DNA of 64,000 bases from positions 434,001 to 498,000 of the forward strand of contig NZ_PDNV01000001.1 of assembly GCF_002849615.1 (NCBI RefSeq), in the 5' to 3' direction. Both the position numbers and the translations under genes were made by a program. Below, piece by piece: positions 2,488 to 50,409 of the stretch; position 1 is the stretch's first letter; each line of letters starts with the position of its first letter. The notes beneath the pieces are model-generated. The model was not told the origin of the DNA and ran no database searches. It saw nothing but the letters and a program-made list of their open reading frames with translations. The DNA comes from Pollutimonas nitritireducens (GTDB taxonomy: Bacteria > Pseudomonadota > Gammaproteobacteria > Burkholderiales > Burkholderiaceae_B).

Positions 2488-3636
2488 TTACTTCAATAGC
2501 GTCCATTGACCGTCTTTGACGGTGATCAGTACACGCCCACGTTCGTCGAAGCCGCTGTGGTCTTGCGGACTCATGTTGTAGACGCCTTGCGTGGCGACCA
2601 ACTCGCGCGTGTTTTCCAGCGCGTCGCGCAGGGCGTTGCGGAATTCGGGCGTGCCAGGCTTGCCGGCCTTGGCCGCTTCAGGAATGGTATGTTCGAGCAG
2701 CAAGCCGGCGTCGAACACATTGGCGCCGAACGTAGCCGGTTTGCTGCCATGCAGCTCGGTGTATCGCGTCACATAGTCTTGTGCGATTTTCTTGGATGGA
2801 TTGCTGTCATCGATTTCCGGCAGGACCAGCATCAGGCCGGCGGCCAGTATGGTGCCTTCCACCTCTTTGCCGCCCAATTTCAGAAACGCCGGCAGGGCCG
2901 CCCCGTGGGTTTGATAGAACTGTCCTTTATAGCCTTGCTTGGCCAGCGTGGCCTGCGGTAACACGGCGGCGGTGCCGGTTCCAGCAATAAGCACAGCGTC
3001 GGGCTTGGCTGACAGTACCTTCAGCGCCTGGCCTGTCACCGAGTTGTCCGAGCGCTGGTAGCGCTCGACGGCGACGATCCTGATATTGTTTTCTTTGGCC
3101 AGATCGCCAAAGACCTTCAACCAGTTTTCGCCATAGGCATCGTTGAAGCCGATGAAGCCGGCCGATTTGACGCCGGCGCCGACCATATGGGCGACGAGCG
3201 CTTTGGCAATGAGGTCATCGTTCTGCGTCGCCTTGAACACCCACTTTTTCTCGGGCGTCATGGGCAGGATCACGGACGCGGTGCCAACGGGAGAAAGCAT
3301 GGGCGTGCCGGATTCGGCAATGAATTGAATGACTGCCATCGCATTGGGCGAACCGGTAGGACCGATGATGGCGTCGACTTTCTGTTCAGTGATGAGCTTC
3401 TTGAATATGGTGACGGTCTGAGTGGGATCGCTGGTGTCGTCCAGCGAGATATATTCGACCATCAGATCGCCGATCTTGGTGGGTAGCAGTGCAACGGTAT
3501 TCTTTTGCGGAATACCGACCATGGCCGTGGGGCCGGTCGCCGATGTGACCACGCCTATCTTGACCTGAGCCAATACGGGGGCGGTGGCCAGCGCGGCAAG
3601 CAGCGTTGCGACGTACGCAAGCGGTTTGAAGGACAT
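2488..3636 (-). CDS. ABC transporter substrate-binding protein, branched-chain amino acid/aromatic type (copy 1)
   Basis: A 382-residue periplasmic binding protein (Peripla_BP_6, LivJ/K-like) with a signal peptide ending near ATAPVLAQ. The mature start VKIGVVTSATGPTAMVGIPQ is typical of type I binding folds for amino acids, amides or aromatic acids. A GGAGAA ribosome site lies upstream of the ATG. It is the last gene of the catabolic operon and a close tandem paralogue of the next protein (4086-5234): both have 382 residues and most aligned positions are identical by eye. No permease or ATPase genes lie nearby, so it must use a transporter encoded elsewhere. The ligand is likely the aromatic substrate of the operon (inference). 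Confidence 0.88.
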   Translation of the reverse strand: MSFKPLAYVATLLAALATAPVLAQVKIGVVTSATGPTAMVGIPQKNTVALLPTKIGDLMVEYISLDDTSDPTQTVTIFKKLITEQKVDAIIGPTGSPNAMAVIQFIAESGTPMLSPVGTASVILPMTPEKKWVFKATQNDDLIAKALVAHMVGAGVKSAGFIGFNDAYGENWLKVFGDLAKENNIRIVAVERYQRSDNSVTGQALKVLSAKPDAVLIAGTGTAAVLPQATLAKQGYKGQFYQTHGAALPAFLKLGGKEVEGTILAAGLMLVLPEIDDSNPSKKIAQDYVTRYTELHGSKPATFGANVFDAGLLLEHTIPEAAKAGKPGTPEFRNALRDALENTRELVATQGVYNMSPQDHSGFDERGRVLITVKDGQWTLLK

Positions 3637-4085
3637 GGGCGGGTTCTCCGTTAATGAATAAATAGAGGGCGAGGCACGAGGCGTCAGCCTGCGGCAAACG
3701 TTGTTGCCTTCGGACGCCTATTCTAAACGGCATCGTCGATTTGTACTTGCTGCCGCATCAATCTTCCTGTTCATGTGCCTTCACCCTCAGTGCAGCAAGC
3801 CGGTGACAGGAGGTGCACAAACTGACATGTGTCGGTGCACACCGGCACACGACCTTGCACACCGAGGAACTTCGGAGTTTGCCGGCTTTCCTCCTGGTGT
3901 CATCAACGTAGTTACAGGCCGCGGTGAGGTGACTGGGTGCTTCTCTTGTAGCGCACCCGGATATCGATAAAATTGTCAGGCGGCGCTATGGAATTTCGCC
4001 GACTGAATGGCGGCGCCAGCAGATCCTTCAATGATCCTGAGGCCGAATCAACGCTAGTCCAACGCCAATTCGGCCTGCTCGCCAA
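3637..4085. other. Non-coding gap between duplicated binding-protein genes
   Basis: About 450 bases with no convincing gene. It holds the ribosome site of copy 1 next to 3637, two direct GGTGCACA repeats at 3812-3819 and 3834-3841 with a related TTGCACACC at about 3854, and a stem-loop at 4040-4076. The repeats could be an operator or promoter for separate expression of copy 1, but no clear promoter is seen. Confidence 0.5.
4040..4076 (-). terminator. Stem-loop downstream of binding-protein copy 2
   Basis: Perfect 9-base arms (AGGCCGAAT and ATTCGGCCT) are separated by 19 bases, starting 9 bases after the stop of the gene at 4086. There is no T-run on the minus strand, so this may be a weak terminator or an mRNA-stabilising hairpin that lets the upstream binding protein be made in excess. 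Confidence 0.4.
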
Positions 4086-5234
4086 CTACTTGACCAGGCG
4101 CCATTCTCCGTCTTTGACAGTAATCAGCTCGCGCCCACGGTCATCGAAGCCGCTATGATCCTCGGCGGTAATGTTGTATACGCCTTGCGTGGCGACCAGT
4201 TCGCGCGTCTTTTCAAGTGCATCCCGCAAAGCGCTGCGGAACTCTTTGGTGCCCGGTTTGGCGATTTTTGCCGCTTCGGGAATGGCCTGCTCGAGCAACA
4301 GCCCCGCATCGTACACATTGGCGCCGAAAGTCGCCGGGGCGCTGCCGTATTCCTTGGTGTAGCGTGCAATGTAGTCTTTGGCGACTTTCTTCGAAGGGTT
4401 GCTTTCGTCGATTTCGGGGAGGACCAGCATGAGGCTGGCGGCCAATATTGTTCCTTCGACTTCCTTGCCGCCAAGCTTCAGGAAAGCAGGCAGGGCCGCG
4501 CCGTGCGTTTGATAAAACTTGCCTTTGTAGCCTTGTTTGGCGAGGGTGGTCTCCGGCAGGACCGCTGCCGCCCCGGTGCCCGCAACCAGCACGGCGTCGG
4601 GATTCGCGGCCAGAACCTTCAGGGCCTGCCCTGTAACCGAGCTGTCCGAGCGCTGATAGCGCTCGGTTGCAATGAGTTTGATATTGTTTTTGGCGGCCAG
4701 ATCAGTAAAAACTTTCAGCCAGTTTTCGCCATAGGCATCGTTCAGTCCGATGAAGGCGGCCGTCTTGATGCCCGACTTCACCATATGGCCGACCAGCGCT
4801 TTTGCGATAATGTCATCGTTCTGCGTTGTTTTGAAGACCCATTTTTTTTCCGGCGACATAGGTAGTACGACCGATGCCGTGCCTACCGGAGCTAGCATTG
4901 GTGTGCCCGATTCAGCGGCAAACTGGATCACGCCCATGGCGTTGGGGGATCCGGACGGTCCGATCAGCGCATCGACTTTTTCCTCGGTAATCAGTTTCTT
5001 GAAGCTGGTCACTGATTGGGTTGGATCGCTGGCGTCGTCCAGCGAAATATATTGGACCGTCAGATCGCCGATTTTGCTGGGCAATAGCGCCACGGTATTT
5101 TTCTGTGGGATGCCTATCAGTGCGGTCGGGCCGGTTGCCGAGGTGACAACGCCTATTTTCACCTGCGCCAGAGTCGGGGTGATGCCAAGCGAGGCAAGGA
5201 TGACAGCAGAGATGGAAAGTTTTTTTAGTAGCAT
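4086..5234 (-). CDS. ABC transporter substrate-binding protein, branched-chain amino acid/aromatic type (copy 2)
   Basis: A 382-residue periplasmic binding protein with signal peptide MLLKKLSISAVILASLG and a mature start VKIGVVTSATGPTALIGIPQ. It is the tandem duplicate of the protein at 2488-3636, with differences spread along the length, so the duplication is old or the copies have diverged in specificity. A GGAGA ribosome site precedes the ATG. The SDR gene upstream ends 42 bases away, so it probably belongs to the same transcript. Presence in the operon suggests capture of the pathway substrate (inference). Confidence 0.88.
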   Translation of the reverse strand: MLLKKLSISAVILASLGITPTLAQVKIGVVTSATGPTALIGIPQKNTVALLPSKIGDLTVQYISLDDASDPTQSVTSFKKLITEEKVDALIGPSGSPNAMGVIQFAAESGTPMLAPVGTASVVLPMSPEKKWVFKTTQNDDIIAKALVGHMVKSGIKTAAFIGLNDAYGENWLKVFTDLAAKNNIKLIATERYQRSDSSVTGQALKVLAANPDAVLVAGTGAAAVLPETTLAKQGYKGKFYQTHGAALPAFLKLGGKEVEGTILAASLMLVLPEIDESNPSKKVAKDYIARYTKEYGSAPATFGANVYDAGLLLEQAIPEAAKIAKPGTKEFRSALRDALEKTRELVATQGVYNITAEDHSGFDDRGRELITVKDGEWRLVK

Positions 5235-5276
5235 GGGGTTGATCTCCGGTGGAAAAAGGAATGCTGCTTCTGCTTT

Positions 5277-6005: not shown

Positions 6006-6018
6006 GTTGCTTCTCCGC

Positions 6019-6810
6019 TTAAGTCGATGATGAGGGCGTCAGCGCCAGGACACGCAAAGGGCTTCCTGAACCACTGCGGATCTTCAAGGGTGCCGAGAAA
6101 ATGACAGCACCTTTTGGCGGCAGCTGATCGAGGTTGGCCATGCATTGCAGGCCATAGCGATTGTTGCCATGCATGAAGTAGTGGCAAGGAAAGGGAGGGT
6201 CGAGATGCTGCGCCTGTCCTGCATCGGTGCCGACGGATTCGGTACCGAATCCGTGTACGTCGCGCTCTTTGATCAGCCAGGGAACGACGTCGGCATTGGG
6301 ACCTGGTGAATGGGCCCCGTCTTCTTTCTGATTAAGATATTCAGTGCGCTTTTCGCGCTTGGACCAGTCGGTGCGCATGAAAACCCAGCACCTGGCCGGT
6401 ATCTCGCCGTGCTGTGCTTCCCATTGCTTGACGAAGTCTATCGTCAGCAGGAAGTCCGGATTATCTTCAGATTCGCGCGAGCAGTCGATCACGCAAGCCT
6501 CGGCGATGAAGGCGTCGAGTGGAATGGTGTCGACGCAATTATTGGGCTGGTCTTTGCCGGTTATCCAGTGTACGGGCGCATCGAAATGGGTGCCGGTATG
6601 TTCGGACATCGAAAAATTATTCCAGTACCAGGCCGGTCCGCGTTCATCGTAGCGGGAGATCTCTTCGATGCGAAATGGCCAGGCTTGGCCGAATTCGGGC
6701 GGCAGGACGATAGTGGGAAAGTCCGGCGTCAGGGTTTCGGTCAGATCGACCATTCTTATTTTGCCGGACAAAAGTTCGGCCATGAACTGGGTCAGTACGG
6801 TGCTTGTCAT
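6019..6810 (-). CDS. Cyclase family protein (isatin hydrolase/kynurenine formamidase-like)
   Basis: A 263-residue member of the metal-dependent cyclase family (PF04199). The hallmark HTGTHFDAPVHW is present near residue 63, and the C-terminal half keeps the family pattern HYFMHGNNRYGLQCMANLDQ. The open frame extends further upstream, but ATG at 6810 is the best start because it has AGGAGA five bases ahead and lies just past the stop of the preceding gene. The family includes kynurenine formamidase and isatin hydrolase, both of which hydrolyse an amide of an anthranilate-type compound. In this operon isatin hydrolysis to isatinate is an attractive role (inference). Confidence 0.8.
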   Translation of the reverse strand: MTSTVLTQFMAELLSGKIRMVDLTETLTPDFPTIVLPPEFGQAWPFRIEEISRYDERGPAWYWNNFSMSEHTGTHFDAPVHWITGKDQPNNCVDTIPLDAFIAEACVIDCSRESEDNPDFLLTIDFVKQWEAQHGEIPARCWVFMRTDWSKREKRTEYLNQKEDGAHSPGPNADVVPWLIKERDVHGFGTESVGTDAGQAQHLDPPFPCHYFMHGNNRYGLQCMANLDQLPPKGAVIFSAPLKIRSGSGSPLRVLALTPSSST

Positions 6811-6821
6811 CAGGTCTCCTT

Positions 6822-8063
6822 TCATGCGCCCAGCTCGCGTTCCAGACCTTTGGGGTTGTCGTGCAAACGTGCCAGGAATTCTTGTGCGATATCGCCCACA
6901 TAGACATCTTCGACGCCGTCCTGCAGCGCGCGCACGATGGCGGCGGCTATGGCACTGGGATTCACACGGGGCGGGGGAGTCAGCTGTTCCCACTCGTGGT
7001 CGATGGGGCCTGAAAATATATTGAGCACCCGGATGCCGGATTGCAGGAATTCGTTGCGCAGGCATTGCGACACCGACAGCGCCGCCGCCTGGGATGCCGA
7101 CCAGATGCCGCGCGACGCCAGGTTGAGATGGGCGTAGATGGACATGATGTTCACCCACGCGACCGCACTGTTCACGCCATCGGCCGCACGGCTGGCCATT
7201 GCTGGACCGAATTGCTGTGCAAGTCGCATGAGGCCCATGCAGTTGACGTCGAGGGCTTCATGAGCTTTACCCAAGTTACGATTGTGAAGTATGCCGCCTT
7301 CGCGCTCGTAGCCCGTGGTGTTGACCAGGATATCGACCTTGCCGCCTATTGACCGCGAAAGGCGTTCGACCGAGTCGGAATCGGTGATATCCAGGTCCTG
7401 TCGCTGTACGCGCTCATCCGTGCACAGAATGTCGAATCTGTCGGAAACCTGCCAGCGTCGCGATTCTCCGGCAAACACCGTCGTGGCGCCTGCCGCCAGC
7501 AACGCGTCGATGGTCGCGAGCCCTACGGCTGATTTACCGTCGGTGACCAGCACGCGACGAAACTTGGGGTCGCACGACGTTTCGCGCACTATTTTGTCGT
7601 CTGCCATGTTCGGGGTCGCCTGTTGTGGGAGTGCAAGAATGACGGCCTGTCCGCTGCGGTCCAGCTTGAGCGCCAGACGAACGTTGTCGCCGTCGCGGCA
7701 GTCGCCATGGACATGAGCAACGACGGAAGGGCCGACCGCCATCTTCACCGTGCCGATGCGCCATGGAATCCGCTCGCGGAAATATAGGTCGTTGCTGTGG
7801 TGCAAGGTGGTCGTGACCAGTAATTGGCCCGTCGGGTCGACGGCTTGCCAGCTCAAGCGATCCGACAGGCAGACGTGGCAAACTTCACGGGGAGGGTACT
7901 GGACGGCATTGCATTCCTGGCATACCTGCAAATCGAACCGTCCGGCGGCCGCTGCGGCGGTAAGGCCCAATGCGCGGCGGCTGCGCGCGCCGGGCGGGAG
8001 CGTGGCCTGCCGTGTGCGCGCCAGCGGATTCTTGCGAGGCGGTCGGGTGAGGGCCTGGGTCAT
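6822..8063 (-). CDS. Fusion of DUF35 OB-fold/zinc-ribbon domain with a degenerate SDR domain
   Basis: A 413-residue two-domain protein. Residues about 35-160 are a DUF35 domain: a rubredoxin-like zinc ribbon (CQEC and CHVC) followed by an OB fold. Residues about 175-390 look like a short-chain dehydrogenase, but the nucleotide motif is altered (VTDGKSAVG) and the YxxxK active site reads WSASQ, so Tyr and Lys are lost; the SDR half is probably not a reductase. ATG at 8063 has AGGAG upstream and overlaps the stop of the thiolase-like gene (ATGA). DUF35 proteins often bind thiolase-like partners, for example Ltp2 in steroid side-chain cleavage, so a complex with the upstream product is likely. 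Confidence 0.8.
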   Translation of the reverse strand: MTQALTRPPRKNPLARTRQATLPPGARSRRALGLTAAAAAGRFDLQVCQECNAVQYPPREVCHVCLSDRLSWQAVDPTGQLLVTTTLHHSNDLYFRERIPWRIGTVKMAVGPSVVAHVHGDCRDGDNVRLALKLDRSGQAVILALPQQATPNMADDKIVRETSCDPKFRRVLVTDGKSAVGLATIDALLAAGATTVFAGESRRWQVSDRFDILCTDERVQRQDLDITDSDSVERLSRSIGGKVDILVNTTGYEREGGILHNRNLGKAHEALDVNCMGLMRLAQQFGPAMASRAADGVNSAVAWVNIMSIYAHLNLASRGIWSASQAAALSVSQCLRNEFLQSGIRVLNIFSGPIDHEWEQLTPPPRVNPSAIAAAIVRALQDGVEDVYVGDIAQEFLARLHDNPKGLERELGA

Positions 8064-9235
8064 GAGTCGCTCCTGGCCAGCAGGGCGGCTGCCGTGCAAA
8101 TACCGCGGTCATAGTTGATCATGCCAAATCCGCTGACCAGGCCCACCCGGGCGTTCGCCACCTGAGTGTCCCCAGCGTGGCCGGTAAGCTGGCGCAAGTT
8201 CTCGACCATGCCCAGGTACCCGCCAGCCGCGCCAGCCTGCCCTACGGACAATTGTCCGCCATTGGTATTGAAGGGAAAACTTCCGTCGATAGTGAAGGTA
8301 TTGGCGCGCACGAATTCGGGCGCGCCACCTTTTTCGCAGAATCCGAGGTCCTCAATCTGCATCATGTTGATCACGGGATAGTCATCGTAGGCCTGCATGA
8401 CGTCGACGTCGGCCGGCCCCACTCCGGCGTGCTCATAAAATTCTTCCCGGTCCACTGTCCAGCCTCCGCGTGTCTGGATGACATCCTGCGTCCATGCGTT
8501 ATGCCGTTCGATCGTGGACAGGATCCGTACAAAAGGCAGTTGCAGTGCAAGGGCTTGTTCTTCACGCATGACCAGGAACGCATCTGCACCTGCGCATGGC
8601 ATCACGCAATCGAACAGATGTATCGGATCGGTGATTTCCCGTGCGTCCAGATATTGCCGCAGCGTCAGCGGCTTTTTCATCAGCGCATGGCGATAGTGCA
8701 GGGCATTGTCGCGCTGTGCGACGCACAGCTTGCCGAAGTCTTCACGCGTCGCGCCGGTTTGTTGCATATAGTGCTTAGTCAGCAAGGCGAAGCTGGCGTT
8801 GGGACCGCCTGCGCCATAAGGATAGACCGCGTCCTGTGCGAAGCGCGAAAATTGGCTGACCGTATTTCGAAACGAATCGACCTGGTTTGCGTCGCCGGCA
8901 AGGCAGGCGACAATGCTGGCGTCGCCCGCCTGGACGGCACGGGCGGCGCGGCGCAGGCCGATGACGCCGCTGGCGCCACCCATGGGGATATGGTCCAGCC
9001 ATCGTGGGCTCATGCCCAGGTGTTGTGTGAGTCCGACCGCTGTGTCCGGGGCAAGGGTGAAGCTCGATACGCACATCCCATCGATATCGTGCTTGGCGAT
9101 GCCTGCTTCACGCAGCAGTGCGCCCAATGCCCTGCCCAGCCACCAATGTGCGCTGTTGATCGAATATCGCTGATAGGGCACGGTGATCGGTACGGTGGCG
9201 ACAATGCCTTCATACCCGGCGCGGCGCGGCCTCAT
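8060..9235 (-). CDS. Thiolase-like protein, probable acyl-CoA retro-aldolase (Ltp2/SCP-x type)
   Basis: A 391-residue thiolase-fold protein of the lipid-transfer/SCP-x group. Where thiolases carry the nucleophilic Cys it reads IPMGGASGVIG, and the usual GHPxG catalytic His site reads SVGQAGAAGG, so both residues are replaced. The C-terminal GFGMINYDRG is typical of the non-thiolytic branch. The steroid enzyme Ltp2 in this branch works as an aldolase with a DUF35 partner, and here a DUF35 gene follows with a four-base overlap. ATG at 9235 overlaps the stop of the ligase gene. Inferred role: split a 3-hydroxyacyl-CoA into a ketone and acetyl-CoA. Confidence 0.8.
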   Translation of the reverse strand: MRPRRAGYEGIVATVPITVPYQRYSINSAHWWLGRALGALLREAGIAKHDIDGMCVSSFTLAPDTAVGLTQHLGMSPRWLDHIPMGGASGVIGLRRAARAVQAGDASIVACLAGDANQVDSFRNTVSQFSRFAQDAVYPYGAGGPNASFALLTKHYMQQTGATREDFGKLCVAQRDNALHYRHALMKKPLTLRQYLDAREITDPIHLFDCVMPCAGADAFLVMREEQALALQLPFVRILSTIERHNAWTQDVIQTRGGWTVDREEFYEHAGVGPADVDVMQAYDDYPVINMMQIEDLGFCEKGGAPEFVRANTFTIDGSFPFNTNGGQLSVGQAGAAGGYLGMVENLRQLTGHAGDTQVANARVGLVSGFGMINYDRGICTAAALLARSDS

Positions 9236-10899
9236 GCGACCGGTTCCTGTCGTTTTTTCAGCGCACGGGTGTCGATGCACATCGGGCTGCCGGGCAGGGT
9301 CCGAGCCAGCGTTTTCAACTCGCCACGCTGCACTTTGTTGGTGATGGTCAAGGGCAGCTCGGGGACAAAGGCGATATAGCCGGGCACTTTGTAGTACGCC
9401 AGCTGGGTCAGACTCCACGTTGCAATGTCGTGGGCAAGTTCCGCCGCCCGGGCGGCGTCCCGTGCGGCGTCCCGGTCGGCGTCCATGGGTGCATGGCTCA
9501 CGATGCAGGCCAATACTTCGTCGCCCCGGAGTTCGTCCGGCACCGCCGCGACGGCAACGGCCTTCACCGCAGGATGCTGCAGCAACACGCTTTCCACTTC
9601 GACGGCCGCGATGTTTTCTCCGCTACGTCGAATCACGTTCTTCTTGCGATCGACAAAATGCAGGAAGCCTTGCCGGTTGCGTCGGACGATATCGCCGGTG
9701 TGGAACCAGCCGTCCTGCCAGGCCAACCGGGTTGCCGCGTCGTCTTTCAGATAGGCGGCAAAGAAGCCGAACCTGGGGTCGGGACCGGCATGTCTGACCA
9801 GCAGCTCGCCATTTTCGTCGGCCGCCGTGGACTCGCCGGCATCGTTGACGATACGTACCTGAATATCGTCGCTCTCTTTGCCGAAACAGCTTGAACCGAC
9901 AAAGCGCGGCTCATGGTTGGCAATGATCACGGCGCCCGCCCCGGTTTCGGTCATGGCCCAGGCTTCCAGCAACGGGAAGCCGAAACGCTGCTCGAAAGCG
10001 GCGTGCAATGACCGGTCGACGCCTGCGCCAAAACCCATGCGCACGTGATGCGCGCGATCTTCGTCTGTTGCCTGCGCCTGCATCAAAATGGCGGGCATGA
10101 CGCCCAGGTAATGGATTATCGTCGCGCGCGATTCGCGTACCGTATCCCACCACGTTCCTGGATGGAAGCGGTCAATGGAAATCAGGCATCCGCCTATCAC
10201 GACCATTGCCATCACCGAATACGCCATGGCATTCATGTGTACCAGCGGTAACGGGGTAAGCATGCGGTCTACGCCTGGATGCAGGGTTGCAAGTCCGCCG
10301 GCTTTGGCATACCAATGGCCAGCGGCCAGGAAATACTCGTTAGGCAGTATGCAGCCTTTCGGGCGCCCCGTGGTGCCAGAGGTATAGAGCAAAGCGCATT
10401 CCGTCGAACTGTCGACAAGAGCGGCAGCCAATGGGGCGACGCTGGGCGCAGCGGGCGGCAGTTCGTCCGTGCCCATGATCAACAGTTTGCTTCCCGCTGC
10501 CTGCGCGGCGGAACGCAGCAGGGCGTGGCGTTTGGGCAGCGCGACGGCCAGCACGATTTCCGAATGATCGATAAGGTATTCCAGCTCCGCTGCACGCATG
10601 TCGACATTGATTGGCACCACCGAGACGCCCAAAGCGTTCAGGGCGAACCAGTGCAGAATGAAGGCAGGCCGATTCTCGAGCAACACGCCAACGCGATGGC
10701 CATGGCCATAATTGGCGGCCTGGAAGGCCGCCTTGAGCGTCTCGATTTCGACGAGCGCATCCTGGTAGCTGATTTCGCCAGCCGCAATGCCGTATATCGC
10801 TGCGGTTTCGGGTGTCACGCACAGGAAGGGATGGCTTGGCCACCTTAGAGCGGCGTCGGTAAAGGCCTGATATACCGTCGTAGACAATGAGGGCCTCAT
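9232..10899 (-). CDS. Acyl-CoA synthetase (AMP-forming, class I adenylate-forming)
   Basis: A 555-residue AMP-dependent ligase that activates a carboxylic acid to its CoA thioester in the cytoplasm. It shows the P-loop LLYTSGTTGRPKG near residue 165, AWAMTETGAG, the hinge region GWFHTGDIVRRNRQGFLHFV with RKKNVIRRSGENIAAVEVE, and a C-terminal lysine in TNKVQRGELK. The longer open frame starts earlier, but ATG at 10899 shares its A with the TGA stop of the beta-subunit gene (TGATG), which fixes the start by coupling. The context suggests an aryl-acetate such as indole-3-acetate or its oxidised form as substrate (inference). Confidence 0.87.
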   Translation of the reverse strand: MRPSLSTTVYQAFTDAALRWPSHPFLCVTPETAAIYGIAAGEISYQDALVEIETLKAAFQAANYGHGHRVGVLLENRPAFILHWFALNALGVSVVPINVDMRAAELEYLIDHSEIVLAVALPKRHALLRSAAQAAGSKLLIMGTDELPPAAPSVAPLAAALVDSSTECALLYTSGTTGRPKGCILPNEYFLAAGHWYAKAGGLATLHPGVDRMLTPLPLVHMNAMAYSVMAMVVIGGCLISIDRFHPGTWWDTVRESRATIIHYLGVMPAILMQAQATDEDRAHHVRMGFGAGVDRSLHAAFEQRFGFPLLEAWAMTETGAGAVIIANHEPRFVGSSCFGKESDDIQVRIVNDAGESTAADENGELLVRHAGPDPRFGFFAAYLKDDAATRLAWQDGWFHTGDIVRRNRQGFLHFVDRKKNVIRRSGENIAAVEVESVLLQHPAVKAVAVAAVPDELRGDEVLACIVSHAPMDADRDAARDAARAAELAHDIATWSLTQLAYYKVPGYIAFVPELPLTITNKVQRGELKTLARTLPGSPMCIDTRALKKRQEPVA

Positions 10900-11393: not shown

Positions 11394-12712
11394 GTGGACT
11401 CCTTCATGGTGGCCGTCATGTAGCGCGCCCAGGCCTGGTACTGGTTGCGCATTTGCCATTCACTGGTGCCGTTGACGACTTCATTCTTGCGATTGGCCTC
11501 GTCGGGGTCGTACAGCCGGGCGACATTGACCCACTCGCGACCTCTGCTGTGCAATCCGTGCTGCGAACGTTCGTAAACCTCGTGATCGTCGTGCCCGACC
11601 ACCGACGTGGGCGCGTTGATGAGGCGGTTGTACATCAAGGTGCGCTCCAGGAGTTTATCGGGCGCTCCGACCAGCCGGAAGGTCCATGATTCCACGAGCG
11701 TCTTGTTGGCGCCCAGGGGCTTGAAGATACGCAGGGTCTGAATGGGACCCTTGACCATGATATTGGGGAAATAGGTGGTGTTGTGTCGGGTGTTGGCCAG
11801 GATTTCCGCGGCGCGTTCGTGGCCATAGGCCTGGTTCATGGCCTCAAGATAGCCTGGCACTTCCGAATACGCAGCATGAATGGAGTTATGGACGCCGGTG
11901 TGGCCATGACCGTTCTCCCAGACCCGGATGCCCATGCCTTCAAAGAACTCATAGGATGAAATAAAGGGGGCGAATTGCTCAACCGCCATTGGTTTGGGCG
12001 TTCCTTCGGGTGCTTCCTCCCACACGCGTACTGCCGTCCCTGCCGATGATTCATGCGCCACCATGGGGTGGCAGGTGTCAGTCTGGTTGTCGACCAGCAT
12101 TTTCCAATTGCAATCGTGCATGTAGCGCAGCACCCCCCCAGCGACCTCGAGCTTGCCTTCGGGCGAGCGCTCTATCATGTTGTCCAGTGTCGACAGGGAC
12201 TCGCCGAAGAATTCATCAAATGACTGGCCCTCGGGGCTGAGGCGACAAAAAACGAAATCACGGTAGTCGCGTACGTTTTCCACAGCGGCCATGCCGTGGC
12301 TGGCTTCGCAGTCATTGAATGTTTCGGGGTCGTAGCCTTTCTTCAAGGGAATCGAAAGCAGCTTGCCGTCGGTTTTGAATGTCCACGCATGGTAAGGACA
12401 CCGGAAGAACTTGCCGGTGTTGCCGCAGGCGTCGCCGGCGACCTTCACGCCTTTGTGCGGGCAGCGATTATGCAGGACTTTGATGGTTTTGTCGGTATGC
12501 CGCACCATTACCACGGGCTGGTCGCCCACTGTGGTGGTGTAGAAATCACCGCTATTTGGAATCTGGCTGCCATGCCCGACGTATACCCAGGTATTGGCAA
12601 ACAAGTGCTCCATTTCCAGCTCGAAGATTTCTTCGCTGATGAAGATATCCCGATGTACCTCGGTGGGACGCACGAGGGTGTCAATGGCAGCAGGATTATT
12701 GCGGTAGTTCAT
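11390..12712 (-). CDS. Aromatic-ring-hydroxylating dioxygenase, alpha (Rieske) subunit
   Basis: A 440-residue Rieske oxygenase large subunit. The Rieske [2Fe-2S] ligands are in CPHKG and CPYHAW at about residues 82-105, and the mononuclear iron site is VDNQTDTCHPMVAH near residue 210 (Asp, His-x4-His). It should add O2-derived hydroxyls to an aromatic or heteroaromatic ring. ATG at 12712 was chosen; GTG at 12721 is possible and neither has a strong ribosome site. It is preceded by its reductase gene and followed by the beta subunit. By family and neighbourhood it is iadD-like, the enzyme known to be needed for indole-3-acetate degradation in Variovorax. Confidence 0.88.
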   Translation of the reverse strand: MNYRNNPAAIDTLVRPTEVHRDIFISEEIFELEMEHLFANTWVYVGHGSQIPNSGDFYTTTVGDQPVVMVRHTDKTIKVLHNRCPHKGVKVAGDACGNTGKFFRCPYHAWTFKTDGKLLSIPLKKGYDPETFNDCEASHGMAAVENVRDYRDFVFCRLSPEGQSFDEFFGESLSTLDNMIERSPEGKLEVAGGVLRYMHDCNWKMLVDNQTDTCHPMVAHESSAGTAVRVWEEAPEGTPKPMAVEQFAPFISSYEFFEGMGIRVWENGHGHTGVHNSIHAAYSEVPGYLEAMNQAYGHERAAEILANTRHNTTYFPNIMVKGPIQTLRIFKPLGANKTLVESWTFRLVGAPDKLLERTLMYNRLINAPTSVVGHDDHEVYERSQHGLHSRGREWVNVARLYDPDEANRKNEVVNGTSEWQMRNQYQAWARYMTATMKEST

Positions 12713-12728
12713 GTCGGGCACCTATGAA

Positions 12729-13706
12729 TCAAAGGTCTAATACCAGGCGGTCGGAATGGCTCCGTGAAACGCAAATCTGCATGACCTGGCCTGCTTTGCG
12801 TTCCGGGTCGGAAAGGTAGTAGTCGCGATGATCGGGGGTTCCTTCCAGCACTGTCGCCTGGCAGACCCCGCATTCCCCGCGCCTGCAGTCGTACATTGGA
12901 TCGCAGCCGGCCTCTTCCAGTACTTCAAGTATGGTTTTATCCGCAGGGATGTGCAGCATCCGGCCGGACTGGCGCAACTCAAGATCGAAGGCTTTGTCGC
13001 CCGGCAGGGCCGCGGCGTTGTTGAACAGCTCGAAATGAACATGCGATTGCGGCCATTGCCTGTCACGTGATTGATGGATGACAGCGTCGATGAGCCCTTT
13101 CGGTCCGCAAACATATAAATGCTGATTGGGTCCAACCTGCTGCAACAGATCGGAAAGCGCAAGCTGGGTTGTTTCGTCGTCGTCGGCGTGAACCCGCAAC
13201 GCGTCGCCATGCTGGGCGGTGAGTTCTTCCAGAAATGCCATCTGATCACGACGGCGACCGTAATAGTGAAGCTGGAATGGATGCTGCGCTTGCTTCAGCG
13301 CCGTTGTCATCGAGATGATGGGCGTGATGCCGATGCCGCCCGCGATCAGCACGGTGCGCGGTTCGTCAGATGCCAGGTCGTGCAGTGGAAAATCGTTCTG
13401 CGGGCCTTCCACCTCGAGTGTGTCGCCGATCTGCAGGCTATGCATATGCCGGGACCCGCCTGTACCAGGTTCTTCCAGGCGCACACTTATGCGGTAGCGC
13501 CGGGGGAAGTCGAACGCGGAGTTGTCGGTGTCCAGGCACACAAGAGAATAGCAGCGAGGCACTTTCTGCCCAGGGATGCTGACCTTCAAGTGGGCACCGG
13601 CGGTGAACCTGGGCAATGCCTGCTTGCCGGCGGCTTCGAGGAATAGTGAGCGGATAATCGGCGTTTCGACGTGTATTTCGACGACCGTCAGATTCAAATG
13701 GGCCAT
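12729..13706 (-). CDS. Oxygenase reductase (FMN/NAD, C-terminal plant-type [2Fe-2S])
   Basis: A 325-residue electron-transfer protein of the phthalate dioxygenase reductase/VanB type. It has, in order, a flavin domain (RCYSLV near residue 51), an NAD domain (GGIGITPIISM near residue 118) and a plant-type ferredoxin domain with CRRGECGVC plus a distal Cys. It moves electrons from NAD(P)H to the Rieske subunit. Its start overlaps the end of iorB by 13 bases, and a GGAGAA site lies about ten bases ahead. It sits directly before the oxygenase alpha gene, which identifies its partner. Confidence 0.9.
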   Translation of the reverse strand: MAHLNLTVVEIHVETPIIRSLFLEAAGKQALPRFTAGAHLKVSIPGQKVPRCYSLVCLDTDNSAFDFPRRYRISVRLEEPGTGGSRHMHSLQIGDTLEVEGPQNDFPLHDLASDEPRTVLIAGGIGITPIISMTTALKQAQHPFQLHYYGRRRDQMAFLEELTAQHGDALRVHADDDETTQLALSDLLQQVGPNQHLYVCGPKGLIDAVIHQSRDRQWPQSHVHFELFNNAAALPGDKAFDLELRQSGRMLHIPADKTILEVLEEAGCDPMYDCRRGECGVCQATVLEGTPDHRDYYLSDPERKAGQVMQICVSRSHSDRLVLDL

Positions 13707-15268
13707 GGTATGTCTCGTTTCTCCGGGCTCAGGGCTTTGTCCAGCAGTTCGTCCAGTTTCAATCCTTCGTCGTCGGCAAGCGCCGCCGCCAGCAAGGCCC
13801 GCAGCGTGCCCGCTGCGTCAGGCTGCCCCGTCAGATGCCCGACCGCGCTGCTAAGCCGTTGGTACTTGCTGTTGCCACGTTCATGTGTGTCGCTATAGCC
13901 TTTGACCAGCCGCCGGCAATTGACGACTTCGACCGCAAGCTCATAGTCATGCTCGACAGTTCGGGCAACCAGTCCCAGCCATTGCTCAAGACTGTTGGTT
14001 TCCACGTGATGACGCAAGGTGGCGCGCCGGAAGCGTCGCATCCCGGCCAGGGAGTACAGCAAAAGAAAACCGCCCAAGGTGCCGCTGCGCAGAAATCGTC
14101 CTTTGCGCAAAAAGCGGCTAAGGTAGCGGCCCGCCGCGGGTGAGTTTTCAATCGCCCGGCCCAGTGCGACGGGAAGGGTTCCGCACACCTCGTCAAGACG
14201 TGGGTGCATATATTCGGTGGTGTAAACCAACTGATCTGGTTGCGCGCCGACCTCGGTGCGGACGCGCTCGAAACGGGCGCTGCGGGTTTTGAGGTCGGCC
14301 ACGCGAATGACGTCGTCGTAGGACATGGACACCGCGACATATCGTGCAGCCGCGCAGGTAAGCGCCCAAGCTTTGCCCGGCCCGCCAAACTGTGTATCCA
14401 GTTTGCAGATGCGGCGCATATGCTCCATGTATTCGCTGGCATAGGGCACATCCTGGAATTCGAGGGTGCGGCGCAAGCCGGCGACCATCATGGGCTGGGC
14501 CTGCAGCGGGAAGTGCTGCTTCAGGTCATCGAGCAGGAACTGCACGTGTGGACTTTCGGCGTGTTCGGGAACGCCGGGCATAGGGCGACCGGTGTCGATA
14601 GCGGCCGGGGCGGCAAGCGCCTGGGCCGCCGCGTCGAATCCCAGGGCGAAAGCGTTCAAACTGGGGTCGACGCCCACGCCCGCGCGGCGGATGGTTTGTT
14701 CATAGTCGGCACGGCTGAACGGCAGGGTGGCGCTGCCGGCGATGGCCCCAAATAGACTTGCACTGATAATGCTGCCTGCCTGCTCGGCCAGTGCCTGAAG
14801 ATCAAAACAATAGAATCTTTTTGCGGCCTGGTTACCGGCCTTGATCACCTTGTTGGGATCGGCAATGCCATTGCCGTGTGCCGCTTTTTCCGCCACAGCA
14901 TAGCTGCGGTGCGACGAAGAGATCAATGTCGTGCGGTCGGGAGTGACCAGGCCGCGTTGAATTGCCCTGCCACCTTCCATGAGCTCGGCGGCGACCACCA
15001 GGTCGACATCGCCGGGCGTGGGCATCATTGCCAGCGCGGGATCTCGTCCGGCTGCCTTGACCGTCGATTCGGGCAGCATTTCGAGATAGTAAATCGTGGC
15101 GCCGGTGCGTTGAGCCACGCCGGGGACGGAGGTGGTCTGGGCCCACCAATCGGCGTGTTCCGCCATATCGACGATCCAGTCGGCCAGGACGCCGCCACCT
15201 TGCCCGCCCATGGCAAGAATGGCAATCTTGATCGGGGTGCCGGAGCGGAACAGGGTTCGATCGGTCAT
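13694..15268 (-). CDS. iorB: Indolepyruvate ferredoxin oxidoreductase subunit beta family
   Basis: A 524-residue protein. The first 200 residues are the gamma-type 2-oxoacid:ferredoxin oxidoreductase domain, starting IAILAMGGQGGGVLADWIVD. The remaining 300 residues form an extra helical domain found in the long aerobic IorB proteins. With IorA it should decarboxylate an aryl-pyruvate to the aryl-acetyl-CoA. It starts ten bases after the iorA stop. Archaeal IorB is about 200 residues, so this is the long proteobacterial form. The function of the extra domain is not clear from sequence. Confidence 0.85.
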   Translation of the reverse strand: MTDRTLFRSGTPIKIAILAMGGQGGGVLADWIVDMAEHADWWAQTTSVPGVAQRTGATIYYLEMLPESTVKAAGRDPALAMMPTPGDVDLVVAAELMEGGRAIQRGLVTPDRTTLISSSHRSYAVAEKAAHGNGIADPNKVIKAGNQAAKRFYCFDLQALAEQAGSIISASLFGAIAGSATLPFSRADYEQTIRRAGVGVDPSLNAFALGFDAAAQALAAPAAIDTGRPMPGVPEHAESPHVQFLLDDLKQHFPLQAQPMMVAGLRRTLEFQDVPYASEYMEHMRRICKLDTQFGGPGKAWALTCAAARYVAVSMSYDDVIRVADLKTRSARFERVRTEVGAQPDQLVYTTEYMHPRLDEVCGTLPVALGRAIENSPAAGRYLSRFLRKGRFLRSGTLGGFLLLYSLAGMRRFRRATLRHHVETNSLEQWLGLVARTVEHDYELAVEVVNCRRLVKGYSDTHERGNSKYQRLSSAVGHLTGQPDAAGTLRALLAAALADDEGLKLDELLDKALSPEKRDIPWPI

Positions 15269-15278
15269 GGATTCGGAT

Positions 15279-17501
15279 TTATAAGGAGCATTCGTTCATG
15301 CCGGCGTCACGGCGCGACTGCAGGTAATGGATGAACCGGCCGCGCATGCGCGCCAAGAATCTATCCCAGCGGCTGGGGTTATGTACGAGGTCAGCCCGGT
15401 AAAAAGAAGGACACAGCACGGCGGCGTGGGCCACTTCACCGCAGTTGCCACAGCCTACGCAGCTGTTGTCGATATGGGCGACAGGGTCTTCCTTCAGCGG
15501 GTCGCCGCTATCCTTGACCGTCAGCGATGGACAGCCCGATAGGCGGATACAGGCATGATCGCCGTTACAGACATCGGGATCGACCCCGAAACGTTCCTTG
15601 ATGACGCGCTGTCCATCCTTTACAGCCTTGTTGAACAGGGGTTTTTCGCGCCGCTGCTTGTTCAACATGCACTCTGACTGCGCAATGATGACTTTTGGGC
15701 CTTTTTCAGATGTGGTCAATGCCTCTTCGATGGTGGCCTGGACCTTGGCGACGTCGTAGGTCCGGTCCAGCGTGCGCAGCCATTTCACCCCTACGCCGCG
15801 TACGGCATTCTCGATGGAGTTGTTGGTGGAACGATGCGTATTGCCCGCGCGCGAGGACAAGATGTCTTGCCCGCCGGTGGCCGCGGAGTAAAAGTTGTCG
15901 ATAATAATGATGACGCCGTCATATTTATTGAAGACGGCGTTGCCCACACCCGATGCCAGGCCGTTATGCCAGAAACCGCCATCGCCCATGATGGAAATGG
16001 GTCGCTTGGCCGACGGGACATTGAATGCCGCGATGCTCGACGCCCCCAGTCCATATCCCATGGTGGTCGCACCCAGGTTGAAGGGCGGAAGTATGGAGAA
16101 AAGGTGGCACCCGATGTCGCAGGCAATGTGATGATCGCCGAGGTTTTTTTGCGCGAGAGTGAGGGCTGAGAACACCGGCCGCTCGGGGCAGCCGGTGCAG
16201 AATCCGGCGGGTCGCGCGGGTACCACGTGCGCCAGCCCGTCGGCGGCGGCCGAGGAATTGGGCGTGGGCTGAAAGGTGATGATTCTTTCTTTTACCGTGG
16301 GACGCGCTGCCTGGGACACGGACATACGGGCGCCGACATCTTCGTTTGCCGGCCTGATGACAGGAAGAAGTTCCCGCTTGTGGGCCGCCAGGAAACCCTG
16401 AAGGCCGTCTCGTATGGCAACCGTTGTGTATTCCCCTGCCACAGGCAGGTAGTCTTTGCCTGCCAATGCCGTGGCAATGCCAGCCTGGCGCAGGATAGTG
16501 TTCAGATTCTGTTCAATGTAATTGGGCTGGCCTTCTTCAATAAGCAGCACCGCCTTTTTATCCCGACAGAACGCCTGGACCTCGTCGTCGATGACGGGGT
16601 AGGTTATGTTCATCACGTATAGCGGGATTCGGCTATTGCCGAAATGATCGGCCAGACCCAATAATTGCAAAGAACGGATCACGCCGTTGTACAAGCCGCC
16701 TTGCAGGATGATTCCAATATCCTTTTGATCGCCCTCGAAAAACTCGTTCAGCTGTTTTACTTTGATGAACTCGGCGGCGGCCGGCCATCGCGATGTTATT
16801 TTTTCATGTTCGTGCAGGAAAGACGCAGGAGGCAGGACGATGCGACTGACATCGCGTACCGGGTTCTCCAGCGCCTGGCGCAGTGTGAAAGCGGGGCGCT
16901 GATTGTCTTTGGCGATGAAACGCCCGTGTACATGGCACCCGCGTATGCGTAATTGCAGGATGACGGGCGTGTTGCTTGCCTCGGATAACTGAAAGCCATC
17001 TTCGACAGCCTTGACCATGCTTTCCAGGTTGGGGCGCGGGTCGAGCAACCAGATTTGCGATTTCATGGCAAATGCGTGGGTGCGCTCTTGCATGATGGAT
17101 GAGCCCTCACCGTAGTCCTCACCTACGATGACCAGTGCGCCGCCGGTGACGCCGCCGGAGGCCAGGTTTGCCAAGGCGTCCGAGGCCACGTTGGTGCCGA
17201 CTGTGGACTTCCATGTGACGGCGCCGCGTATGGGGTACATGACGGAAGCGGCGAGCGTGGCCGCAGCGGTGGCTTCCGATGCACTGGCTTCAAAGTGCAC
17301 ACCCAGCTCGTCCAAAATTTCCTGGGCATCCGCCAGCACATCCATCAGATGGGAAATGGGAGAGCCCTGGTAGCCTGCGACATAGCCGACTCCGGATTGC
17401 AACAAGGCTTTGGTCACAGCCAGGATTCCTTCGCCACGGAATTCTTCCCCCGCCCCGATACGAAGTTGTTGTACTTCCTTCTTGAACGAGCGTTCAGCCA
17501 T
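15279..17501 (-). CDS. iorA: Indolepyruvate ferredoxin oxidoreductase subunit alpha
   Basis: A 740-residue 2-oxoacid:ferredoxin oxidoreductase large subunit. The N-terminal half is the pyrimidine-binding domain (SGVGYVAGYQGSPISHLMDV). The thiamine-diphosphate site is GDGGFWHNGLASGVGNAVFN near residue 500 with IDNFYSAATGG. The C-terminus has iron-sulfur cysteines (CVGCGNC and further Cys in HACIRLSGCPS). ATG at 17501 has AGGAGA four bases ahead; the longer frame lacks support. As first gene of the operon it faces the MarR gene across an AT-rich promoter region. It links tryptophan-derived indolepyruvate to the CoA-dependent pathway (inference). Confidence 0.88.
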   Translation of the reverse strand: MAERSFKKEVQQLRIGAGEEFRGEGILAVTKALLQSGVGYVAGYQGSPISHLMDVLADAQEILDELGVHFEASASEATAAATLAASVMYPIRGAVTWKSTVGTNVASDALANLASGGVTGGALVIVGEDYGEGSSIMQERTHAFAMKSQIWLLDPRPNLESMVKAVEDGFQLSEASNTPVILQLRIRGCHVHGRFIAKDNQRPAFTLRQALENPVRDVSRIVLPPASFLHEHEKITSRWPAAAEFIKVKQLNEFFEGDQKDIGIILQGGLYNGVIRSLQLLGLADHFGNSRIPLYVMNITYPVIDDEVQAFCRDKKAVLLIEEGQPNYIEQNLNTILRQAGIATALAGKDYLPVAGEYTTVAIRDGLQGFLAAHKRELLPVIRPANEDVGARMSVSQAARPTVKERIITFQPTPNSSAAADGLAHVVPARPAGFCTGCPERPVFSALTLAQKNLGDHHIACDIGCHLFSILPPFNLGATTMGYGLGASSIAAFNVPSAKRPISIMGDGGFWHNGLASGVGNAVFNKYDGVIIIIDNFYSAATGGQDILSSRAGNTHRSTNNSIENAVRGVGVKWLRTLDRTYDVAKVQATIEEALTTSEKGPKVIIAQSECMLNKQRREKPLFNKAVKDGQRVIKERFGVDPDVCNGDHACIRLSGCPSLTVKDSGDPLKEDPVAHIDNSCVGCGNCGEVAHAAVLCPSFYRADLVHNPSRWDRFLARMRGRFIHYLQSRRDAGMNECSL

Positions 17502-17590
17502 GGTCTCTCCTGGCACTATTTCGGGCAGTCGGCAGGGCGGACATCCGGCCTGATACTTTGATCCGGGGGCCGCGGGCAACGAGTCATAAT

Positions 17591-17619
17591 ACTTTAGGCT
17601 TCAATCTAATTGCCGTCAA
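17591..17619 (-). promoter_or_regulatory. Candidate sigma-70 promoter for the catabolic operon
   Basis: On the minus strand TTGACG (17619-17614) and TAAAGT (17596-17591) are separated by exactly 17 bases, pointing toward iorA about 90 bases downstream. The palindrome at 17627-17638 lies just upstream of the -35 element. Confidence 0.45.
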
Positions 17620-17626
17620 TAAAAAC

Positions 17627-17638
17627 ATGAATATTCAT
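17627..17638. promoter_or_regulatory. Perfect 12-base palindrome ATGAATATTCAT, possible MarR operator
   Basis: ATGAATATTCAT is fully self-complementary and lies in the divergent region between iorA and the MarR gene. MarR dimers usually bind short AT-rich palindromes of this kind next to their own gene. Binding is inferred. Confidence 0.45.
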
Positions 17639-17702
17639 ATATAAACAAAATTTAGTATAGATAACAGCGATTTGGGTATAAGTGCTTACCATTATTTTTC
17701 TA

Positions 17703-17721
17703 GCGAAATGAGCCGTTTCGC
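17703..17721. promoter_or_regulatory. Inverted repeat GCGAAA-N7-TTTCGC before the MarR gene
   Basis: Six-base perfect arms with a 7-base spacer lie 19 bases before the MarR ATG, a position suited to autoregulation. No good ribosome site is visible between it and the ATG. Confidence 0.4.
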
Positions 17722-17739
17722 ATTAAAATTGAAAGCCAT

Positions 17740-18219
17740 ATGCAGAAGAGTCCGAAAATTGTGCAGGGTACAGAATCCCCATCAAGGCAAGCGATAGGCT
17801 CGTCCCGTTTTGTGCACCGATACCTTGCTTCTGTCTTGGCGCAGGCCAGCCATCGCATCTCTGCCGAGTTCCACGTCGAGGTCAGGAAGGCCGGACTGAC
17901 CGTGACGGAATGGCGGGTGCTGGGTAGCCTTGTCGAAGGCGATGGCGAAACCGTGGGTCAACTGGCCAGGCTGGCGGTCACTAAGCAGCCCACCCTAAGC
18001 AAGGTGTTGCCGCGCCTGCAAGAACAGGGCTACGTCAGCATGCAGGCGTCACGGCTCGATCGGCGCCAGACGCTGGTAAGTATCACACCGAAGGGCGCTA
18101 AATTGATTCATGGCCTATGCGAGCAAGCCATGGAGCATCAGCGCCGAGTACTGGAAAAACTGGATCCCGATCATGCGGACAGACTGGTCGATATGTTGCG
18201 CGCCATCATTTCGCGGTGA
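17740..18219 (+). CDS. MarR family transcriptional regulator
   Basis: A 159-residue winged-helix regulator. The helix-turn-helix lies at about residues 70-95 (TVGQLARLAVTKQPTLSKVL) and the wing at QASRLDRRQTLVSITPKG with the conserved DxR. The N- and C-terminal helices form the dimer and ligand pocket. It is divergent from the iorA-led operon, with candidate operators between them. MarR proteins of this kind repress aromatic degradation operons until the substrate binds, and iad-type auxin loci are controlled by a MarR repressor that binds indole-3-acetate. That this one senses an indolic acid is inference. Confidence 0.9.
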   Translation: MQKSPKIVQGTESPSRQAIGSSRFVHRYLASVLAQASHRISAEFHVEVRKAGLTVTEWRVLGSLVEGDGETVGQLARLAVTKQPTLSKVLPRLQEQGYVSMQASRLDRRQTLVSITPKGAKLIHGLCEQAMEHQRRVLEKLDPDHADRLVDMLRAIISR

Positions 18220-49592: not shown

Positions 49593-49644
49593 CAACAGGT
49601 AAGCGTTAATAAGAAATTAAGCACGCCAAACCCGGAGACTGTAT

Positions 49645-50217: not shown

Positions 50218-50409
50218 AAAGACAGCGTTGCAAACTCTGCTCTGCACTAAAACTCGCATGTGTCGTTGACGCACACAGTTTGCTCTGCCTAGAGTCACTT
50301 TCTTGAGGGGTCCCATGTTCAGCACGCGTCTATATCTGGTGCCAGACGGCTCGTTGATCTGGCACAGGATTTGCGTAACAGTGGGAATGATTCACAAGGA
50401 AGGCAACTG

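Follow-up and report, generated by a model that had tools for sequence, protein, structure and literature searches.

The stretch of Pollutimonas nitritireducens DNA analysed here, called the window, comprises 64,000 nucleotides of a 4.31 Mb genome, and at positions 2488-18219 it was found to carry an operon of one MarR-family gene on the + strand and twelve genes on the - strand, which run from 17501 down to 2488 and mostly overlap or nearly touch. Judged by sequence, this is a full iad operon, iadR/ABCDEFGHIJ with two binding-protein genes, for the aerobic breakdown of indole-3-acetate (IAA). Several starts in the list of open reading frames were too long, and likelier ones were chosen by gene overlap and homology (iadA 17501, iadE 11393, iadF about 10899, iadG 9235, iadH 8063 and iadI 6825). 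SDR denotes short-chain dehydrogenase, CoA coenzyme A and PDB the Protein Data Bank.

17740-18219, + strand: iadR, divergent MarR-family repressor; best PDB match 7kfo (MarR_73, Variovorax paradoxus), E 8.5e-32
17625-17640, no strand: candidate IadR operator with the core palindrome ATGAATATTCAT; imperfect 8+8 inverted repeat with an exact 6+6 core
15279-17501, - strand: iadA, alpha subunit of a thiamine-diphosphate (ThDP) 2-oxoacid oxidoreductase (IorA family); TPP_enzyme_C, TIGR03336 below cut-off, C-terminal CxxCxxC
13694-15268, - strand: iadB, IorB-family subunit; POR and DUF6537, NF006179 at 699.9 bits (cut-off 348)
12729-13706, - strand: iadC, PDR-type flavin/[2Fe-2S] reductase for IadDE; Pfam FAD_binding_6, NAD_binding_1 and Fer2
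11390-12721, - strand: iadD, Rieske oxygenase alpha subunit; 9o71 at E 1.4e-185, 7yls at E 1.6e-184
10899-11393, - strand: iadE, Rieske oxygenase beta subunit; Ring_hydroxyl_B, start from the ATGA overlap with iadD
9232-10899, - strand: iadF, AMP-forming acyl-CoA ligase, presumed dioxindole-3-acetate--CoA ligase; AMP-binding and AMP-binding_C
8060-9235, - strand: iadG, thiolase-fold protein, probable retro-aldolase (Sal/Ltp2-like, YDDY) from sequence and predicted fold
6822-8063, - strand: iadH, DUF35 protein (partner of IadG) with a fused SDR domain in which YxxxK is absent; zf-ChsH2 and OB_ChsH2_C plus SDR
6019-6825, - strand: iadI, isatin hydrolase by sequence; 5nna at E 1.7e-112, 7/7 catalytic residues, 60.7% identity
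5277-6005, - strand: iadJ, intact SDR dehydrogenase that would complete dioxindole-3-acetate formation (role from PMC12633357); TGGSAGIG and YSATK
4086-5234, - strand: iadK-type solute-binding protein; Peripla_BP_6, best PDB match 3sg0, 7ylt seventh at E 6e-78
2488-3636, - strand: second solute-binding protein of the same family; Peripla_BP_6

The closest solved relatives of IadD were 9o71, which is V. paradoxus IadD (57.5% identical), and 7yls, presumably IadD from the other Variovorax IadDE study, and the third match fell to E 7e-44. The entry 7ylt is taken by us to be IadK2. The adjacent iadD and iadE were homologous to characterised IadDE, and the MarR gene was divergent from iadA. Among the genes scanned at 347-22037, no Pfam family of the kind expected for iacA, iacB or iacI was found. 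The iorA/iorB pair, published as iadA and iadB markers exclusive to iad as against iac loci (PMC9613470), was present in the window.

Related loci were taken as the best 80 of at least 597 relatives, 57 of these 80 being at least 19 kb long. The named Variovorax and Bradyrhizobium loci were not among them; a Variovorax-like locus, L144, was recognised by its IadD (94.3% identical to 9o71), and its R/ABCDEFGHIJ genes were collinear with the window gene for gene. The genes A, B, D and G occurred together in 41 of the 57 long loci (IadD at least 55%), and 26 held the whole order R-A-B-C-D-E-F-G-H-I-J-K, so the arrangement is not due to chance. The window locus is itself a further copy of a known operon type, and its IadG was 93% identical to that of Pollutimonas subterranea (L077). 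Two overlapping genome samples were also used: 399 genomes from the taxonomic order of the window, its own genome among them, and 378 from the phylum. IadG (at least 56% identity) was found in 13 of the 399 genomes of the order; IadD (at least 50%) was found in 10 of these 13 versus 1 of the other 386, which include G387 with a fourteenth IadG match at 45%. Every gene named in the original prediction, made from the letters alone, was present at 2488-18219 in the order given. Its iad identity was supported by the 9o71 and MarR_73 matches and by collinearity with L144 from R to J; the best solved homologues of the Rieske alpha subunit were IadD and not an enzyme for a non-indolic substrate. As a side observation, Aromatoleum evansii KB740 (L029), known for the anaerobic iaa pathway, also carried a full iad locus.

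The front end of the pathway was read from work on Variovorax. There, IadCDE is a monooxygenase with the product C10H9NO3, and the SDR protein IadJ is needed for C10H9NO4, dioxindole-3-acetate (2025 preprint PMC12633357); the IadCDE product was earlier named oxIAA (PMC10374108). The window IadJ was intact (TGGSAGIG and YSATK), and the Tyr/Lys pair was kept in 60 of 61 aligned sequences, the remaining row being gapped there. The Rieske enzyme alone had been expected to make dioxindole-3-acetate, which was not borne out, since in the preprint IadCDE gives C10H9NO3 and IadJ completes the oxidation (PMC12633357). In another genome of the window's taxonomic order (G285, L095:3257-11786), an amidase and a flavin amine oxidase flanked IadD (64%) and IadE (61%), F-G-H-I being absent; this gene set looks like an indole-acetamide route to IAA.

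Overall, the operon is probably best explained as an iad operon with retro-aldol IadG/IadH, isatin hydrolase IadI and isatinate-oxidising IadAB. IAA would be converted by IadCDE and IadJ through C10H9NO3 to dioxindole-3-acetate, as printed for Variovorax (PMC12633357). IadF would then form dioxindole-3-acetyl-CoA, a tertiary beta-hydroxyacyl-CoA, which IadG, held by the DUF35 domain of IadH, would cleave by a retro-aldol reaction to isatin and acetyl-CoA. The isatin ring would be opened by IadI to isatinate, the isatinate would be oxidatively decarboxylated by IadAB to anthraniloyl-CoA, and this could be taken up by the PRK08255-type monooxygenase/reductase cluster present elsewhere in the same genome. 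In IadH, the SDR domain would be structural or vestigial. In this scheme, retro-aldol cleavage and isatin hydrolysis survive from the original prediction, and the Rieske enzyme acting alone and IorAB acting on indolepyruvate do not.

The assignment of IadI came from both overall similarity and catalytic residues. Its best solved relatives were isatin hydrolases, and kynurenine formamidase reached E 5e-6. The hydrolysis of isatin by the Labrenzia isatin hydrolase and seven residues of its mechanism have been published (PMC6117287), and the window IadI keeps all seven, the Mn ligands His69, His73 and Asp75 plus His79, His207, Asp193 and Gln219, the last standing for the Glu of KynB. Six of these positions were kept in 79/79 sequences of the IadI family alignment and the Gln in 78/79. 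Moreover, the iadI of Roseibium (Labrenzia) aggregatum, which lies in an R-C-D-E-F-G-H-I-J operon, was identical to isatin hydrolase A (5nnb) at 248 of 257 positions; neither "operon" nor "gene cluster" is used anywhere in the main text of PMC6117287. The preprint supposes IadI to be a broad-specificity amidase (PMC12633357). These results indicated that IadI looks like an isatin hydrolase, as had been proposed for the cyclase-family gene. The route to isatin is not new, because isatin has already been printed as an intermediate for Bradyrhizobium and Variovorax (PMC9613470). In addition, some iad loci (L038, L041 and G388:C1:2273658-2274425) carried two isatin hydrolase genes, the second lying immediately upstream of iadA. 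Rhizobiales loci (L048, L058, L062, L063 and L071) had F-G-H-I as a cassette in stretches that gave no match to IadD; the block of ligase, aldolase and isatin hydrolase can thus move independently of the Rieske enzyme.

Downstream of isatinate, the role of IadAB was considered. The original prediction held that IorAB feeds indolepyruvate into the pathway as indoleacetyl-CoA, in keeping with the family name and with the indolic theme of iad loci, and IadA was indeed found in 12 of the 13 IadG-positive genomes versus 37 of the 386 IadG-negative ones. However, IadA scored 273 bits against the curated IOR_alpha model (cut-off 650.9), so "iorA" is a family name and not a verified function; IadB was above the cut-off of its family model (699.9 vs 348). 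For neither subunit was a PDB sequence match found at E 0.001. The Pfam model PF01855 was tried as a marker of IadA and rejected, its sole match in the own genome being outside the window. Enzymes of the IadAB family act on 2-oxo acids, and isatinate is one of these.

The genomic neighbours of IadA were then compared at isatin hydrolase places with no IadG match up to 10 kb on either side, 23 of which came from the 399-genome and 378-genome samples. An IadA-family gene lay within 10 kb of the isatin hydrolase at 15 of the 23 (8 of 15 genera), whereas chance would give about 0.0008 per place (computed from some 60 IadA places in the 399 genomes, each genome assumed to be 3.7 Mb). The sample was uneven, since 8 of the 15 places belonged to one genus (g245, 8 of its 9 places), and at G647 a separate iadG lay about 11 kb away. 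At these 15 places no match to the IAA oxygenase, ligase or aldolase was found, and indoleacetyl-CoA would therefore lead nowhere there. The places with no IadA nearby were G352:C5 (judged from match lists), G204, G132, G151, G675, G623, G702 and G586:C49; the stretches of G204, G675 and G623 reach the contig end, and the IadA gene of G204 was on another contig beside a PRK08255 gene (L103). Plasmids named for the pair were chosen because both genes were listed. Pairs with no auxin genes in the stretch were carried by plasmids of Paracoccus (I-MarR-A-B), Tritonibacter, Alloyangia, Sulfitobacter mediterraneus, Novosphingobium and the actinobacterium Tsukamurella; in Novosphingobium the pair was 16 bp apart, with an IadG match far away on the same plasmid, among the 40 of 543 records listed in the plasmid search with IadG. 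In Sulfitobacter W027, A-B with a second isatin hydrolase lay about 22 kb from the D-to-J genes.

The PRK08255-type protein is a flavin monooxygenase fused to an OYE domain, a make-up that we take to be that of 2-aminobenzoyl-CoA monooxygenase/reductase. It was present at 10 of the 15 isatin hydrolase-IadA places, several copies being cut by the stretch end and one matching the first domain only, and it occurred in the clusters of Caballeronia (A-B-thioesterase-PRK08255), Azospirillum (R-A-B-C-D-E-F-J-PRK08255) and Tsukamurella. The own genome encoded it on another contig at 1386 bits (cut-off 1078, exceeded in 0/14 control genomes), in a cluster with an SDR gene, an enoyl-CoA hydratase gene and benzoate-CoA-ligase-like and Rid-like genes, the last two below their cut-offs. 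Two plasmids with no IorA match carried a ThDP enzyme of the three-domain decarboxylase type. In Deinococcus it immediately followed the isatin hydrolase, and in Agrobacterium pusense it lay about 2 kb from iadG on the opposite strand; the Deinococcus cluster, having this enzyme and no IorAB, also speaks against indolepyruvate feeding.

In a tree of 86 IadA sequences, where a row was counted as "iad" if its stretch gave any G match, even a weak one as in L105 and L113, 16 of the 23 IadA from places with isatin hydrolase and no IadG joined the iad rows in one 63-row group (support 99). The only row of this group with no isatin gene was that of Azospirillum, which has its isatin hydrolase beyond the stretch. 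The remaining 7 of the 23 fell in neighbouring groups, mixed with iad rows and rows with no isatin gene, and L117 and L118 (no isatin genes) and the Verticiella copy stood outside all groups on long branches. C8H7NO3 and C7H7NO are the formulas of isatinic acid and 2-aminobenzaldehyde, respectively. Products of both formulas build up in the V. paradoxus strain deltaHS33 carrying iadC-K2, which omits iadAB (PMC12633357); deltaHS33 is deleted for genes 77-53, and so for iadA (gene 72) and the gene separating it from iadC (gene 70) (PMC9613470).

Several observations weigh against isatinate as the substrate. Anthranilate is fully restored by iadC-K2 without iadAB (PMC12633357), which also favours indolepyruvate feeding and means that IadAB is not needed for anthranilate under the conditions of the preprint, and overexpression alone might explain the accumulation of C8H7NO3 and C7H7NO. 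Some of the IadA-family genes in the 37 IadG-negative genomes have no isatin gene near, and some IadG-less copies sit with an alpha-hydroxy-acid oxidase or insertion sequence (IS) elements. Six long iad loci with IadD (L039, L042, L043, L049, L054 and L055) had no iadA in the stretch, so the IadA step can be done otherwise. Finally, gene nearness shows a shared pathway, not a substrate. Even so, given that IadA-type genes lie near isatin hydrolase where iadG is absent, often with PRK08255, IadAB may oxidise isatinate to anthraniloyl-CoA; the proposal that IorAB feeds indolepyruvate is probably wrong, was rejected as the main role, and is given a minor share of the probability. Among the matches listed in the open-access literature searched, no paper joined isatinate with indolepyruvate ferredoxin oxidoreductase; of isatin hydrolase with indolepyruvate, salicylyl-CoA 5-hydroxylase or 2-aminobenzoyl-CoA, only the last combination was met, in one indole review whose passages draw no link between the two. 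A conserved FAD protein resembling carotenoid oxidase (Amino_oxidase/NAD_binding_8; L109:5916-7475, with equivalents in L100, L110, L111, L132-L139, L141 and L142) was also encoded between the isatin hydrolase and IorA genes of lone isatin clusters and may be the isatin maker there.

Upstream of isatin, the cleavage step was assigned to IadG. C3 of dioxindole-3-acetyl-CoA carries a tertiary hydroxyl group and so cannot be turned into the beta-ketone needed for cleavage by a thiolase. The closest solved relative of IadG was CtSal (9myr), both by phmmer and by Foldseek (TM score 0.82; predicted model with a mean local confidence, pLDDT, of 79.7 and a predicted TM score, pTM, of 0.85). The putative thiolase 4u4e was second in both lists, thiolase 7yvy was third by fold, and Ltp2 (6ok1) was third by sequence and fourth by fold. 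When IadG was aligned to 7yvy, Gly87 stood opposite the Cys, Gln333 opposite the His of GHP and Tyr283 opposite the His of HDAF, residues whose roles in thiolases are general knowledge. Y283, D284, D285 and Y286 (YDDY), G87, Q328 and Q333 were each kept in 81/81 sequences (the window and 80 loci). Thus IadG shares with Sal and Ltp2 the catalytic Tyr of YDxx (Tyr283) and the loss of the thiolase nucleophile Cys (Gly87). Retro-aldol enzymes of the same fold, Ltp2 and Sal, cut steroid side chains (PMC12329534, PMC11321319).

In the preprint, IadG is a ketothiolase (EC 2.3.1.16) and IadH an alcohol dehydrogenase, and the acetyl chain is removed reductively to give dioxindole (PMC12633357). This scheme agrees with database annotation and with the accumulation of C8H7NO2 in the iadI mutant and in iadCDEFGH_JK2 (PMC12633357), but it meets the tertiary beta-carbon of the substrate, a Gly in place of the nucleophile in 81/81 IadG sequences, for which IadG was rejected as a thiolase, and an IadH in which YxxxK was found in 0/71 sequences, no SDR match in 7/78 loci and Phe for Tyr in the Variovorax-like locus. 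It is accordingly considered improbable. Retro-aldol cleavage of dioxindole-3-acetyl-CoA to isatin and acetyl-CoA fits better than the published ketothiolase and is well supported as a prediction, because of the tertiary C3, the Sal-nearest IadG without the thiolase nucleophile and the DUF35 domain of IadH; the original prediction of a retro-aldol pair was upheld on these grounds. Two features count against it. By fold, 7yvy and 4u4e rank between Sal and Ltp2, and IadG has neither known general acid, with Asp285 at the place of Sal Cys304 and Gln333 at that of Ltp2 Tyr344 (81/81). With a general acid unlike those of Sal and Ltp2, IadG would be a third active-site type, predicted to work like Sal/Ltp2 but filed as neither. 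The preprint PMC12633357 nowhere uses the term aldolase, and among the matches listed in the open-access literature no paper joined dioxindole with aldolase; the retro-aldol step, absent from the available parts of the iad papers and from the matches listed, was the real addition of the original prediction.

The partner protein IadH carried a zinc-ribbon part (zf-ChsH2 and OB_ChsH2_C) with four Cys kept in 71/71 sequences, fused in one frame to the SDR part in 70 of 78 loci. One locus (L069) was cut by the contig end, and no SDR match was found in the other 7 of the 78 DUF35 loci (L039, L042, L043, L049, L055, L056 and L065, from Alcaligenes, Paenalcaligenes, Schauerella and others). The YxxxK pair occurred in none of the 71 fused sequences, window included, one row being gapped there. 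The Tyr site was Trp in 45/71, the first Gly of TGxxxGxG was Asp in 69/71, and the IadH of L144 had Phe for Tyr (GTFSASK). The best 50 fold matches of the IadH model were all SDR proteins, with no DUF35 complex among them, probably because the SDR half dominates. IadH is thus probably no dehydrogenase, given the lost YxxxK pair, the Gly to Asp change and the loci with no SDR match, and it was rejected as a working SDR in contrast to IadJ. A DUF35 domain, short-chain dehydrogenase and thiolase came together, among the matches listed in the open-access literature, only in the bile-acid review PMC8399759.

The preprint places C8H7NO2 on the pathway, with IadH as a dehydrogenase (PMC12633357), which weighs against the retro-aldol pathway. 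A further possibility is that dioxindole is formed from isatin by the SDR part of IadH, working through a non-standard mechanism, and is then the substrate of IadI. Dioxindole has been detected in iad strains (PMC9613470), and the DUF35-SDR fusion is widely kept, as counted above, but catalytic Tyr and Lys are found together in none of the 71 sequences and IadI has all seven isatin-hydrolase residues, leaving this explanation slightly less probable still than a ketothiolase. Given an IadH SDR part without its catalytic pair, the published dioxindole (C8H7NO2) would be explained better as isatin reduced off the pathway, by some other enzyme, when IadI is missing. It is very improbable that the operon serves a non-indolic aromatic acid. 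The 57.5% identity of IadD to its Variovorax counterpart allows for some change, but the IadD structures match it far better than any other solved Rieske enzyme does, and isatin hydrolase and IadR belong to the same operon.

A wider reading, of more interest and judged somewhat likely, is that isatinate is processed by the IorAB of iad loci as part of a broader isatin module. IadAB would be an isatinate (2-aminophenylglyoxylate) oxidoreductase producing anthraniloyl-CoA and would form, with isatin hydrolase and PRK08255, a portable module shared by Proteobacteria and at least one actinobacterium. In the auxin operon, this module would be joined to an oxygenase/dehydrogenase front end and a new Sal/Ltp2-like YDDY aldolase with a degenerate-SDR DUF35 partner. 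The iad pathway has a protective effect on root development, and plant bacteria are being engineered to carry it, yet the assignment of its middle and last steps comes from annotation (PMC12633357). For each of these steps the sequence evidence suggests a chemistry, namely retro-aldol cleavage, isatin hydrolysis and oxidative decarboxylation of isatinate, and the published assignments of IadG as ketothiolase, IadH as dehydrogenase and IadI as broad amidase deserve re-examination. If this is true, iadAB, omitted from the engineered iadC-K2 cassettes, is predicted to be the step that stops isatinate build-up. The sequence evidence also bears on a question from a 2018 review (PMC6221969), whether indole breakdown truly passes through isatin.

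With regard to regulation, the published MarR_73 site lies between iadR and iadA (PMC9613470), and the palindrome ATGAATATTCAT agrees with it in position. Similar exact palindromes were present in 7 of the 11 relatives' iadR-iadA gaps examined and not in those of L009, L037, L029 and L144; ATGAATATTCAT is a candidate only for the IadR operator. Derepression of IadR with IAA is in print for Variovorax. Downstream of iadR, rpoH (sigma-32, 18317-19201) starts after about 97 bp on the same strand. Elsewhere in the window, a region of lower G+C (48405-53907) contained three CoA-transferase family III genes, followed up to 62720 by an aconitase-family gene, a TctC receptor and a GMC oxidoreductase, and a protein resembling the Type I restriction enzyme R-subunit was encoded at 39535-41829.

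Compared with known systems, the window shares the gene order R/ABCDEFGHIJK with the iad operon of V. paradoxus CL014/CL14, also found in Achromobacter and Bradyrhizobium, but it has no permease/ATPase genes after the two binding proteins, beyond which an endonuclease/phosphatase-family gene and a ClsB-like gene lie on the opposite strand (347-2442). IadI has the Mn ligands and four further residues of isatin hydrolase A from Labrenzia (Roseibium) aggregata (5nna/5nnb) and differs in being 60.7% identical and known here from its sequence. IadAB has the domain make-up of the indolepyruvate ferredoxin oxidoreductase IorAB, whereas IadA falls below the curated IOR_alpha cut-off and has isatin hydrolase and PRK08255 among its genomic partners. 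With Sal-Shy of Comamonas and Ltp2-ChsH2 of Thermomonospora, the IadG/IadH pair has in common the thiolase fold, a DUF35 partner, the catalytic Tyr of YDxx and, as predicted for IadG, cleavage of a beta-hydroxyacyl-CoA without thiolysis. It differs from them in the motif (YDDY versus YDCY or YDHF), in the DUF35 partner, which is fused to a degenerate SDR in IadH and to a MaoC domain in the steroid aldolases, and in the substrate, predicted to be an oxindole for IadG and a steroid for Sal/Ltp2.

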